Shown here in pieces: positions 18,786 to 22,136 of a stretch of 64,000 bases of DNA. Location of the stretch: positions 4,340,001-4,404,000 of the forward strand of contig NZ_CP118632.1 of assembly GCF_028993615.1 (NCBI RefSeq), given 5' to 3'. The translations under genes and the position numbers were made by a program. Below the pieces are notes generated by a model. The model worked only from the letters and a program-made list of their open reading frames with translations, made no database searches and was not told where the DNA came from. Origin of the DNA: Herbaspirillum sp. WKF16. Its GTDB lineage: Bacteria; Pseudomonadota; Gammaproteobacteria; Burkholderiales; Burkholderiaceae_D. Positions within the stretch are counted from its first letter, which is position 1, and each line of letters opens with the position of its first letter.

Positions 18786-20891
18786 ATGAGCCGCAAGACC
18801 CGAATAGAAAACTACCGCAACATCGGTATCAGCGCCCACATCGACGCAGGCAAGACCACGACCACCGAGCGCATTCTTTTTTATACCGGCGTCAATCACA
18901 AAATCGGCGAAGTGCATAACGGTGCGGCCACCATGGACTGGATGGAGCAGGAGCAGGAACGCGGCATCACCATCACTTCGGCGGCCACCACGGCCTTCTG
19001 GAAGGGCATGGCCGGCAACTATCCGGAGCACCGCATCAACATCATCGATACCCCGGGCCACGTCGACTTCACCATCGAAGTCGAACGCTCGATGCGCGTG
19101 CTGGACGGCGCCGTGATGGTGTACGACTCGGTGGGCGGCGTGCAGCCGCAGTCCGAGACCGTCTGGCGCCAGGCCAACAAGTACAAGGTGCCGCGCGTTG
19201 CCTTCGTCAACAAGATGGACCGCATCGGCGCGGACTTCTTCCGCGTGCAAAAGCAGATCGTGGAACGCCTGAAGGGCAATGCCGTGCCGATCCAGATCCC
19301 GGTCGGGGCCGAAGACAATTTTTCCGGCGTGATCGACCTGGTCAAGATGAAGGCCATCATCTGGGATGAGGCCAGCCAGGGCGTGCTGTTCAAGTACGAG
19401 GACATTCCGCTGGAGCTGGAGGACACCGCGCGCCAGTGGCGCGACAACATGATCGAGCAGGCCGCCGAGGCCAATGAAGAGCTGCTGGAGAAATACCTGT
19501 CCGGCACGCCGCTGACCGAAGACGACATCAAGCTCGGCCTGCGCCTGCGCACGGTGGCCGGCGAGATCGTGCCGATGCTGGCCGGCAGCGCGTTCAAGAA
19601 CAAGGGCGTGCAGGCCATGCTGGACGCGGTGATCGATTACCTGCCCTCGCCCGTCGACGTGCCGGCCATCGCCGGCCACGCCGAGGACGACTCGGAGATC
19701 GAACGCCATCCGTCGGACGACGAGCCGTTCTCGGCGCTGGCCTTCAAGATCATGACCGACCCGTTCGTGGGCCAGCTGACCTTCTTCCGGGTGTACTCCG
19801 GCATCGTCAACTCGGGCGACGCCGTCTACAACCCCTTGAAGGGCAAGAAGGAGCGCCTGGGCCGCATCCTGCAGATGCACGCCAACGAACGCAAGGAGAT
19901 CAAGGAAGTGTTCGCCGGCGACATCGCCGCCGCCGTGGGCCTGAAGGACGTGACCACCGGCGACACGTTGTCCGACCCCGATCATCCGATCATCCTGGAG
20001 CGCATGATCTTCCCGGAACCGGTGATCTCGCAGGCGGTGGAACCCAAGACCAAGGCCGACCAGGAGAAGATGGGCATCGCCCTGAACCGCCTGGCGCAGG
20101 AAGATCCGTCCTTCCGCGTGCATACCGACGAGGAATCGGGCCAGACCATCATGTCCGGCATGGGCGAGCTGCACCTGGAAATCCTGGTCGATCGCATGAA
20201 GCGCGAGTTCAACGTGGAAGCCACCGTCGGCAAGCCGCAGGTGGCCTATCGCGAAGCGATCCGCAAGGGCGTGGAAGATGTCGAGGGCAAGTTCGTCAAG
20301 CAATCCGGCGGACGCGGCCAGTACGGCCACGTGGTGATCAAGCTGGAACCGCAGCCGGCCGGCAAGGGCTATGAGTTTGTCGATGCCATCAAGGGCGGCG
20401 TGGTGCCGCGCGAGTACATCCCGGCGGTCGACAAGGGCATCCAGGAGTCGCTCAAGGCGGGCATCCTGGCGGGTTACCCGGTGGTGGACGTGAAGGCGAC
20501 GCTGACCTTCGGTTCCTACCACGACGTCGACTCCAACGAGAACGCCTTCCGCATGGCCGGCTCGATGGCCTTCAAGGAAGCGATGAAGCGCGCCGGGCCG
20601 ATCCTGCTGGAACCGATGATGCAGGTCGAGGTGGAAACGCCCGAGGACTTCATGGGCAACGTGATGGGCGACCTGTCGTCCCGCCGCGGCATGGTGCAAG
20701 GCATGGAAGACATGGTGGGCGGCGGCAAGCTGGTGCGCGCCGAAGTCCCGTTGTCGGAAATGTTCGGCTACTCGACCACGCTGCGCTCGCTGTCGCAAGG
20801 CCGCGCGACTTACTCGATGGAGTTCAAGCATTACGCCGAGGCGCCGCGCCAGGTGGTGGAGCAATTGACCGGCAATAAGGCCAAGGGCTGA
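18786..20891 (+). CDS. fusA: Elongation factor G (stand-alone copy)
   Basis: 701 aa, full-length EF-G. GTP-binding motifs are G1 [11 protein letters not shown]2 in [10 protein letters not shown]3 DTPGHVDF and G4 NKMD. Domain IV carries GGRGQYGHV and the C-terminus reads [13 protein letters not shown]. It catalyses ribosomal translocation. Here it stands alone rather than in the rpsL-rpsG-fusA-tuf operon; betaproteobacteria often carry a second EF-G gene, so this is probably the extra copy (fusA2-like). It has its own promoter candidate and terminator. Confidence 0.94.
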
Positions 20892-20917
20892 TTTACAGCT
20901 TGCCTCAGCGCCAAAGG

Positions 20918-20952
20918 AAAGCCGTTGCATCCAAGGATGCAGCGGCTTTTTT
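20918..20952 (+). terminator. Terminator of the EF-G gene
   Basis: GCCGTTGCATCC-AA-GGATGCAGCGGC forms a 12-bp stem with one wobble, followed by six T, 27 nt after the fusA stop. Confidence 0.9.
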
Positions 20953-21020
20953 CTTATCGTTTGCACGACAGGCCTAAAAGAAAAAAGCCTGCTCAACTCA
21001 CGTTGAACAGGCTTTTTATT

Positions 21021-21126
21021 TGGCGGAGCGGACGGGCTCTCCTACACAAGCGCAGGCCGCGGAATCGCTTGCAAGCGATTCCCTTCTCGCCCCGCCGGGA
21101 GCCGCGCAGGCGGCTCCCTCCACTCC
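21021..21126 (-). other. tRNA-like segment in repeat unit 1
   Basis: Identical in layout and sequence to the segment in the neighbouring unit, exactly 167 bp away. It is also followed by its own terminator hairpin (20982-21017). The acceptor strands and CCA end are kept; the internal tRNA arms are not. Confidence 0.5.
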
Positions 21127-21187
21127 GCTGCTTTTGCTGCGCAAAAGAAAAAAGCCTGCTCAACTTACGTTGAACAGGCTTTTTATT

Positions 21188-21293
21188 TGGCGGAGCGGAC
21201 GGGCTCTCCTACACAAGCGCAGGCCGCGGAATCGCTTGCAAGCGATTCCCTTCTCGCCCCGCCGGGAGCCGCGCAGGCGGCTCCCTCCACTCC
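21188..21293 (-). other. tRNA-like segment in repeat unit 2
   Basis: This 106-nt segment begins with GGAGTGG and ends with CCGCTCC-G-CCA, the same acceptor strands as the real tRNA-Asp, and a 7-bp acceptor stem can form. Between them are two strong hairpins instead of D, anticodon and T arms, so it cannot be a working tRNA. The distance to the preceding tRNA end (61 nt) equals that to the next copy. It may be a stable small RNA domain or a decayed tRNA copy. Confidence 0.5.
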
Positions 21294-21315
21294 GCTGCTT
21301 TTGCTGCGCAAAAGA

Positions 21316-21351
21316 AAAAAGCCTGCTCAACTTGCGTTGAACAGGCTTTTT
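21316..21351. terminator. Terminator after tRNA-Asp
   Basis: AAAAAGCCTG[C]TCAAC paired with GTTGAACAGGCTTTTT, with runs on both sides. It begins 3 nt after the CCA end of tRNA-Asp on the minus strand. Copies of the same hairpin stand at 21149-21184 and 20982-21017. Confidence 0.9.
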
Positions 21352-21354
21352 ATT

Positions 21355-21431
21355 TGGCGGAGCGGACGGGGCTCGAACCCGCGACCCCCGGCGTGACAGG
21401 CCGGTATTCTAACCAACTGAACTACCACTCC
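21355..21431 (-). tRNA. tRNA-Asp (anticodon GUC)
   Basis: 77 nt with the CCA encoded. Acceptor stem GGAGTGG/CCGCTCC with one G-U pair, discriminator G, D arm AGTTCAGTTGGTTAGAAT, anticodon arm CCGGC-CTGTCAC-GCCGG giving GTC, and a T arm GCGGG-TTCGAGC-CCCGT. It decodes Asp codons GAC/GAU. It is transcribed leftward and is followed by a terminator and two tandem repeats of its own 3' end. Confidence 0.98.
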
Positions 21432-21542
21432 TAAATCGTCTTCAGCGGAACTGCTCTTGCTGAAAGACCGCTATTCTATAAGAGACTTTTTAGAAAAGCC
21501 AGTACTTTGTCGGGCTTTTGCGAAAATATTTACGCGCGGTCT

Positions 21543-22136
21543 TCAGGCCTTGAATGTGCCTTCGAACGCCAGCTTGGAGAGCGGCTCGCGCGGGCTTGGC
21601 AGTTCGCGGGCTTGCAGGCCTTCCGGCAGGATGGATTTGTCGCCCAGCTTGCCGATGGCGACCATGGCTTCCACCGAGAATTCGGCCGGCACGTTGAGTT
21701 CGGTGCGCGCCTTTTCCTTATCGAAGCCGGCCATGCCGTGGGCGTGCCAGCCGGAAATGCTGGCTTGCAGGGCCATGTAGCCCCAGGCCGAACCGGTGTC
21801 GAAGGAGTGGGTGGTGGCGGGCACGGCGGCGCTGGCGCCCGGCGGGACCATCACGGTGCGCGACAGGATCACGATCAGCACGGATGCCTTCTCGGCCCAG
21901 CTGCGGTTGAATTCATTGAGCAGGCCCAGCAGGCGATCCCACGCCGGCGTGCCGCGGCGCGCGAAGACGAAGCGCCAGGGTTGCGCATTGTAGGCCGAAG
22001 GAGCCCAGCGCGCGGCTTCCAGGAAAGTCAGCACGGTTTCTTCCGAGATGTCGGCGCCGGTGTAGGCGCGCGGCGACCAGCGGTTGATGAAATGGGCGTC
22101 GATCGGATAGTCGGCTGCGCGCGGATTGGAAGACAT
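21543..22136 (-). CDS. Nitroreductase-family protein
   Basis: 197 aa. The FMN-binding nitroreductase pattern is clear: RWSPRAYTGADISEETVLTF, then EAARWAPSAYNAQPWRFVF, and a C-terminal VAIGKLGDKSILPEGLQ. The ATG at 22136 is preceded by AGGAG at suitable spacing; an upstream in-frame ATG at 22172 is poorer. Members reduce quinones, nitroaromatics or enones with NAD(P)H and bound FMN. Here it stands alone between tRNA-Asp and mnmE. Confidence 0.88.
   Translation of the reverse strand: MSSNPRAADYPIDAHFINRWSPRAYTGADISEETVLTFLEAARWAPSAYNAQPWRFVFARRGTPAWDRLLGLLNEFNRSWAEKASVLIVILSRTVMVPPGASAAVPATTHSFDTGSAWGYMALQASISGWHAHGMAGFDKEKARTELNVPAEFSVEAMVAIGKLGDKSILPEGLQARELPSPREPLSKLAFEGTFKA

Follow-up and report, generated by a model that had tools for sequence, protein, structure and literature searches.

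Tandem RtT-like tRNA-tail elements behind tRNA-Asp in Herbaspirillum sp. WKF16, and a related family in the Burkholderiales

Results and Discussion

A 167-bp tandem array follows the tRNA-Asp gene

The window, by which we mean the whole 64-kb stretch of DNA that was analysed, carries a tRNA-Asp gene followed on its own strand by a tandem array. Tandem Repeats Finder placed this array at 20976-21370, with a period of 167, 2.4 copies, 99% matches and a score of 776, and gave the remaining four arrays of the window scores of just 51-55. A repeat search paired the copies 20976-21142 and 21143-21309 at 99%; the third copy (21310-21370, 61 nt) is the 3' end of tRNA-Asp itself together with its terminator. 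Both programs thus bore out the original prediction of a 167-bp period with two full units and a 61-bp third part. Its claim that differences are confined to a hairpin loop also held, as the copies vary solely at the terminator loop (GCAA, GTAA or GTGA). The last 16-21 nt of tRNA-Asp are the part copied by the repeat ends. The tRNA end common to the copies is 16 nt, exact (CCCGTCCGCTCCGCCA), in agreement with the 16-19 bases predicted for each unit, and the terminator expected in every unit is found as a 16-pair terminator-like stem with a T tract. The features are as follows.

21355-21431, minus strand: tRNA-Asp (GTC), from ARAGORN; Rfam tRNA model, 65.9 bits; CCA genomically encoded
21316-21351, minus strand: terminator-like stem 1, 16 pairs, loop GCAA, between tRNA-Asp and the first element
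21188-21354, minus strand: unit 1, CCA to CCA, 167 nt
21188-21295, minus strand: RtT-like tRNA-tail element, copy 1; R1 model, 102.3 bits
21286-21295, minus strand: antisense acceptor arm GCGGAGTGGA, 5' strand of helix P1, copy 1
21264-21285, minus strand: hairpin P2, copy 1
21228-21249, minus strand: hairpin P4 GGAATCGCTTGCAAGCGATTCC, copy 1
21204-21227, minus strand: hairpin P5 region GCGGCCTGC...GTAGGAGAG, copy 1; absent from the best fold of copy 1
21188-21203, minus strand: sense copy of the tRNA-Asp 3' end with CCA, closing unit 1
21149-21184, minus strand: terminator-like stem 2, loop GTAA
21021-21187, minus strand: unit 2, CCA to CCA, 167 nt
21021-21128, minus strand: RtT-like tRNA-tail element, copy 2; R1 model, 102.3 bits
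21097-21118, minus strand: hairpin P2, copy 2
21061-21082, minus strand: hairpin P4, copy 2
21021-21036, minus strand: sense copy of the tRNA-Asp 3' end with CCA, closing unit 2
20982-21017, minus strand: terminator-like stem 3, loop GTGA, at the array end

Beyond what had been noticed before, each terminator is separated from the following tRNA end by a conserved module of several hairpins that includes an antisense copy of the tRNA 3' arm. We rejected chance or an assembly artefact as its source, since another tRNA-Asp locus, as well as many genomes, show the same architecture. The element was also rejected as a tRNA gene or pseudogene: ARAGORN sees one tRNA in the window, which is tRNA-Asp itself. 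A scan of 20850-21560 found no sigma-70-like site, a result of little weight since tRNA-Asp was likewise without one in that scan.

Open reading frames of 82-106 aa run across the units on the opposite strand. The 701-aa ORF at 18786-20891 (plus strand), which by resemblance we take to be EF-G-like, converges on the array and has a terminator-like stem of its own at 20915-20952.

The element pairs antisense and sense copies of a tRNA 3' arm

Each unit contains an element of about 108 nt, which runs in the order antisense acceptor arm, P2, antisense T arm, P4, P5, and sense T arm plus acceptor strand with CCA. The outer helices, P1 and P3, are formed by antisense and sense copies of the 3' arm of the preceding tRNA, and P2, P4 and P5 are inner hairpins. 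An RtT-like tRNA-tail element is repeated in tandem at this locus.

We built a covariance model of the element (R1), which gave 143 matches at E<=1e-4 within the 100 stretches supplied. In the R1 alignment of 130 distinct elements, 93.2% of cells were paired, as compared to 72.4% in shuffles and 39-49% when the alignment was slid by 1-3 columns; these figures come from a model-fitted alignment that leans to structure, and kinship inflates the pair counts, although the slid controls retain that kinship. Double-sided changes were present in 36 of the 42 pairs. When eleven elements were folded singly, ten showed P1-P5, with P1 shortened in two (L033 and L035). The best fold of the window copy keeps P1 and P2 and rearranges P3-P5, because its T-arm segment has changed; as aligned, this copy is without four consensus pairs in P3/P5 (three non-pairs and one gap).

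By eye, many loci (for example L023, L026 and L045) have an extra small hairpin of variable sequence upstream of P1. It lies between terminator 1 and the element and often has a GCGCAGC or GCCCGAAGGGC-like core.

Related elements stand behind five types of tRNA gene

An exact pattern drawn from P4 and P5, without tRNA letters, was scanned over the named GTDB genomes and returned at least 119 stretches. Among the stretches listed, 121 of 135 core matches lay less than 400 nt behind a tRNA of the same strand, which among the matches listed was Asp in 82 cases, Ser in 23, Glu in 14 and Arg in 2; none of the 135 listed had only an opposite-strand tRNA. Six of the remaining 14 were at a contig or stretch edge, two were later copies of one array, one stood behind a displaced tRNA end and two were on a metagenome contig (L200). 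The last three, in the unrelated bacteria Parvibaculum, Phycisphaera and Holophagales, are probably chance matches.

The covariance model gave a similar picture in nine chosen Herbaspirillum genomes, where 50 of 55 R1 matches were behind tRNAs (Leu 19, Asp 13, Glu 11, Ser 7). The other five comprise a later array copy at 432 nt, three copies behind displaced tRNA ends (clear in G001 and G005, degenerate in G030) and one unexplained match (G029, L046). All eight R1 matches in the genome of the window were behind tRNA-Asp, tRNA-Glu or tRNA-Leu. The original prediction was to be refuted if the unit turned out to be dispersed and unconnected with tRNA genes. On the strength of the 121 of 135 listed core matches and 50 of 55 model matches that sit behind tRNAs, a dispersed repeat was rejected.

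R1 matches were found in 86 of 145 sampled genomes of the family (E<=1e-3) and in 7 of 250 of the order, four of them from the same taxonomic family as the genome of the window (E<=1e-5); among 274 sampled genomes of the class, only the genome of the window matched (E<=1e-5). The titles of the named hits, among the matches listed, were mostly Herbaspirillum, Massilia, Pseudoduganella, Herminiimonas, Collimonas, Undibacterium, Cupriavidus and Burkholderia. The element is no one-off, but a family that stands behind Asp, Ser, Glu, Leu and Arg tRNAs in many Burkholderiales.

Within the genus, 31 of the 62 tRNA-Asp loci examined among those listed carried an intact element, 8 a decayed one and 20 none, and 3 were cut by contig ends, where intact and decayed are defined by our own score cut-offs of 60 and 8 bits. 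This patchy presence indicates that the element is dispensable. In clusters of the form Ala-Glu-Glu-[element]-Ala-Glu (L058, L059 and L061), the element lies inside the tRNA cluster.

Several elements stand behind a displaced tRNA 3' end (L043 in G001, L054 in G005, L057 in G029, where the element is truncated, L055 in G030, where the tRNA end is degenerate, and L218). In G001, G005 and G029, the stretch contains or lies near an integrase gene, an arrangement that looks like the insertion of an island between tRNA and element.

An origin from phages or plasmids was rejected, as viral contigs (searched with two exact patterns, which variants could escape), phage records and plasmid records held no match to the element. 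A longer query reached 143 plasmid records and covered none of them to 80%; the 20 listed match only its first 77-89 nt, which is the tRNA and a few bases beyond.

The arms follow the adjacent tRNA, and arrays are probably homogenised locally

We compared the sense arm with the end of the adjacent tRNA and found a longest exact match of at least 19 nt in 75 of the 121 matches listed, whereas a control tRNA picked at random from those for other amino acids gave at most 11 nt in the same 121. The antisense acceptor 7-mer was exact in 39 of the 121 matches listed, as compared to 2 of 121 with the control tRNA.

The genome of the window has a second tRNA-Asp gene 1.6 Mb away, behind tRNA-Val at C1:2772029-2772465 (on the 4.99-Mb contig), followed by an array of the same make-up with a unit length of 161 bp. 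The two tRNA-Asp genes differ at a single position, nt 69 (G or A), and all four sense arms of the two arrays carry the nt-69 base of their own tRNA-Asp gene. The terminators are likewise specific to each locus, and the 77-nt core is identical across all four units. This combination of locus-specific sense arms and terminators with a shared core shows that the repeat ends are kept like the local tRNA and that the core is common to both loci. It also supports the recent duplication or gene conversion that had been proposed from the near identity of the units. By eye, the two tRNA-Leu(cag) loci of this genome behave likewise; units are 156 bp at one, and the other consists of one full and one truncated unit. 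Arrays of 177 bp and of 154-155 bp were found in G089 and G111.

To describe the direct repeat, we compared the 40 nt past the second CCA with the 40 nt past the tRNA. The second CCA end could be located in 79 of 110 loci examined; as observed identities only, the two stretches were at least 80% alike in 58 of these 79, 60-80% alike in 8 and below 60% in 13. Thus, the usual direct repeat is the tRNA end plus terminator, open to homogenisation, expansion and deletion by recombination. In five loci (L049, L143, L152, L155 and L170) weaker-scoring copies share arrays with stronger ones, which indicates that arrays can contain units of differing age.

The element resembles RtT and differs from it in structure and hosts

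The parallel with E. coli rtT that had been drawn from the sequence proved to go deeper than stated, in that an antisense tRNA arm, a set of inner hairpins and a sense tRNA end with CCA are common to both elements. In E. coli, tandem rtT units of 178 bp lie behind the tRNA on the same strand, as the 167-bp units do in the window. The three E. coli units each carry an antisense tRNA-Tyr arm (86% complementary over 22 nt) and close with the sense tRNA-Tyr end, and the Rfam RtT structure (RF00391, E. coli rttR) closes with an antisense/sense tRNA helix, as does the Burkholderiales element, in which the CCA is left free. The annotated RttR RNA of the E. coli tyrT-tyrV operon, an ncRNA feature of 171 nt, has its 3' end exactly at the mimic CCA.

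The two elements also differ. By eye against the RtT structure, the Burkholderiales element has an extra hairpin, P2, at the acceptor/T junction; its units further hold a terminator-like stem, and the tRNAs that host it are those for Asp, Ser, Glu, Leu and Arg. The RF00391 gathering cut-off of 45 bits was not reached anywhere in the window, in which tRNA alone attained its gathering score. RtT was absent from the 37 Rfam matches at E<=10 in 20900-21500, and the whole genome gave no RtT match at E<=1. We rejected any known Rfam family other than tRNA, as the sub-threshold matches fall far below their cut-offs. In the reverse direction, R1 run on the E. coli stretch ranked the three rtT units 1st, 2nd and 4th, at 9.4-12.5 bits (E 0.049-0.23). 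On the 30 other RtT loci its lowest E was 0.13, and 8 of 69 hits at E<=10 overlapped RtT on its strand. R1 did not recover RtT significantly in either set, and the two elements may share ancestry or may have arisen independently.

The rtT unit was matched in 4680 of 5426 E. coli genomes, in 1 to 9 places each (median 2). RF00391 matched 65 of 369 sampled genomes of the class, 23 of them above the cut-off, and one of 250 in the sample of the order, below the cut-off; the taxonomic ranges of RtT and of the Burkholderiales element are almost complementary in the samples searched. A survey limited to the 30 RtT matches with loci placed 24 behind a same-strand tRNA (Tyr, Gln or Ser), and two more (L321 and L330) overlapped a tRNA end; the sense arm matched its tRNA over 18-19 nt in 17 of the 24. 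In these gammaproteobacterial loci (L309-L338), RtT stands behind tRNA-Gln and tRNA-Ser as well as tRNA-Tyr, with the ends copied.

The discovery of RtT in the tyrT operon of E. coli dates to 1991, as cited in PMC4986893, which also cites an effect on the stringent response. The same source describes RtT RNAs detected by Northern blot in Actinobacillus, where it places both of its RtT RNAs upstream, not downstream, of Asn and Lys tRNA genes. RtT RNAs are reported as up-regulated in Thioalkalivibrio transcriptomes (PMC8092127, in part). The mechanism of RtT is little defined.

On the best reading of these comparisons, the Burkholderiales element appears to be a new RtT-like variant. We found no publication on it in the part of the literature that our search reached; 285 ncRNAs are reported for H. 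seropedicae in the portion of PMC6337395 at hand, and overlap with the element is possible. It would provide a second family, structurally richer than RtT, with arms that track five tRNA types and in Burkholderiales that are tractable in the laboratory. The natural variation of the family should help to test the role of the arms, whether in processing at the mimic CCA, as a decoy of tRNA-binding enzymes or in DNA-level exchange. It also accounts for a group of tandem repeats located downstream of tRNA genes, which are sites of island integration.

A wider proposal, which we offer tentatively and consider rather less probable than its negation, treats RtT and the Burkholderiales element as two branches within a single broad class of tRNA-tail elements in the Gammaproteobacteria (GTDB sense), able to settle behind many tRNA genes. 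Both of their outer arms would be actively re-templated to the adjacent tRNA 3' end, through recombination with template switching or through att-like exchange, so that folding would restore a cognate acceptor arm; the product would be a tRNA-specific mimic with a free CCA and not a general small RNA.

Wobble pairs and predicted stability separate the helices

We used the balance of G-T and A-C pairs as a guide to whether each helix is kept as RNA or as DNA; the counts here and below run over elements and ignore their relatedness. The terminator stems of the same loci behaved as expected for RNA, with 48 G-T and 5 A-C in 1328 cells. P2 and P4 did not: together they had 8 G-T and 14 A-C in 2310 cells, although they vary freely by double changes, almost without wobble. 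Per helix, G-T/A-C was 49/47 in P1, 5/8 in P2 and 3/6 in P4, as opposed to 96/17 in P3 and 156/3 in P5. Much of the excess in P3 falls at pairs fixed by tRNA letters.

Full compensation almost without wobble, as in P2 and P4, is not typical of RNA and was the result that we least expected. RNA-level selection on all helices was set aside, as P2 and P4, with no G-T excess, lend it no support. That these two are held as near-perfect palindromes fits DNA-level use or correction by template switching.

Folded as RNA, the whole element was more stable on the tRNA-sense strand in 112 of the 128 elements that differ between strands. This was driven mostly by P5, whose G-T pair is kept in 119 of 128; for P2 taken by itself, the complementary strand is the more stable one more often (51 vs 10). 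From these predicted stabilities we conclude that the tRNA-sense strand would be the folding strand.

Proposed mechanism and alternative explanations

The best explanation overall, to which we give slightly more credence than to all others together, is an RtT-like tRNA-tail array that is homogenised by its direct repeats, read through from the tRNA, trimmed at the mimic CCA and active as an acceptor-arm mimic. The direct repeats of about 60 bp would recombine with or convert one another; in this way the sense arm and the terminator would stay matched to the local tRNA, and the array would grow and shrink. A minority of tRNA-Asp transcripts would pass the first terminator. The read-through RNA would fold with its 3' CCA free, and the enzymes of tRNA 3' maturation would trim it at the mimic CCA, so that each unit would give rise to roughly one RNA of 167 nt, comparable to the RttR RNA annotated in E. 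coli, at a level that would follow tRNA synthesis. By this analogy, the element probably yields a read-through RNA cut at the mimic CCA. A point against an RNA is the 16-pair terminator-like stem that stands before the element. In the last and least certain step, the released RNA would act as an acceptor-arm mimic for enzymes that bind or process tRNA ends; we offer this as our best guess, since what persists from one tRNA type to the next is the agreement with the neighbouring tRNA.

The main rival, a serious one although we think it unlikely on balance, is that the element is a cassette at the DNA level, a tiny selfish or passenger unit at tRNA 3' ends whose RNA is a by-product. The sense arm, from T-loop to CCA, would be an attachment-like repeat, the inner palindromes would be DNA hairpins or cruciforms, and the unit would be moved by RecA or by recombinases that already use tRNA ends. 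The T-loop-to-CCA block is typical of tRNA attachment sites, and it is this block that forms the sense arm. A DNA cassette would also account for the lack of a G-T excess over A-C in P1, P2 and P4, for copies behind several tRNA types together with decayed remnants and empty sites, and for the identical core at loci 1.6 Mb apart. By eye, the first terminator of one locus (L024) resembles that of another species' element (L023) and its second is of another type, and integrase-bearing islands use some of the same tRNAs. However, an integrase match within 10 kb on the element's own contig was seen for just 2 of the 55 copies from the nine genomes, and the viral contigs (two exact patterns), phage records and plasmid records gave no match. 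Furthermore, the stretch past the second copy usually duplicates the first (58 of 79 loci), as in a tandem duplication and not a clean insertion, and P5, P3 (in part set by the tRNA) and the fold of the whole element favour one strand.

A neutral origin appears improbable. Here, tandem duplication of a tRNA end plus terminator would have produced a functionless by-product, with its palindromes perfected by template switching at quasi-palindromes. The high similarity of the copies, the occurrence of arrays, decayed copies and empty sites, and the strand symmetry of the palindromes would all follow. Such a process would not carry one core between tRNA types nor keep the G-T pair of P5 in 119 of 128 elements, and related cores stand behind five tRNA types in many genera, with double-sided changes in 36 of 42 pairs.

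We regard as very improbable that the direct repeats are attL/attR of a deleted element that left about 100 bp: although direct repeats of a tRNA 3' end are present, and an integrase lies between tRNA-Asp and the element in G001 (C2, 17.6-21.5 kb), between tRNA-Asp and a truncated element in G029 (C1, 1542-1568 kb) and about 1.1 kb from the element in G005, the element in all three sits, by eye, past the displaced tRNA end, as a resident rather than a scar, and independent scars would not account for the related cores found at tRNA genes for Asp, Ser, Glu, Leu and Arg.

Comparison with other repeats and read-through RNAs

Besides RtT, three known systems share features with the RtT-like array. 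Islands integrated at tRNA genes also have a direct repeat of the tRNA 3' end (att duplications), but the present element is about 100-180 bp with a conserved folded core. In the nine Herbaspirillum genomes, 53 of 55 elements had no integrase within 10 kb on the same contig, and the four integrase matches (PF00589) in the genome of the window are all at least 41 kb from its eight elements. REP and GTAG-tagged repeats are likewise short, palindromic and intergenic, and a GTAG motif occurs in P5 of the element; in contrast to them, the element is not scattered: in the nine genomes a tRNA directly precedes 50 of the 55 model matches. By term search, the available part of a REP survey (PMC3733652) names none of Herbaspirillum, Burkholderia, Cupriavidus and Ralstonia. 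In E. coli rRNA operons, read-through sRNAs (rrA, rrB and rrF) arise between dual terminators (PMC8144298, in part). They too are structured RNAs that read-through produces downstream of the first terminator in an operon for stable RNA, but the part of that paper available makes no mention of tRNA mimicry or of a tandem repeat of the upstream gene's end.

Two loci depart from the usual arrangement. On the metagenome-assembled Lacisediminimonas contig (L200, 7122-7223), one copy lies beside an integrase-like ORF, away from any detected tRNA. This ORF seems truncated, and short inverted repeats extend past the arms of the element; the copy is possibly a real insertion or a misassembly. At L076 (G003), a sequence that opens with GTGCGCCCAGCATGGGCGCAC directly follows the tRNA-Asp terminator and resembles the 5' terminus of bacterial group II introns.
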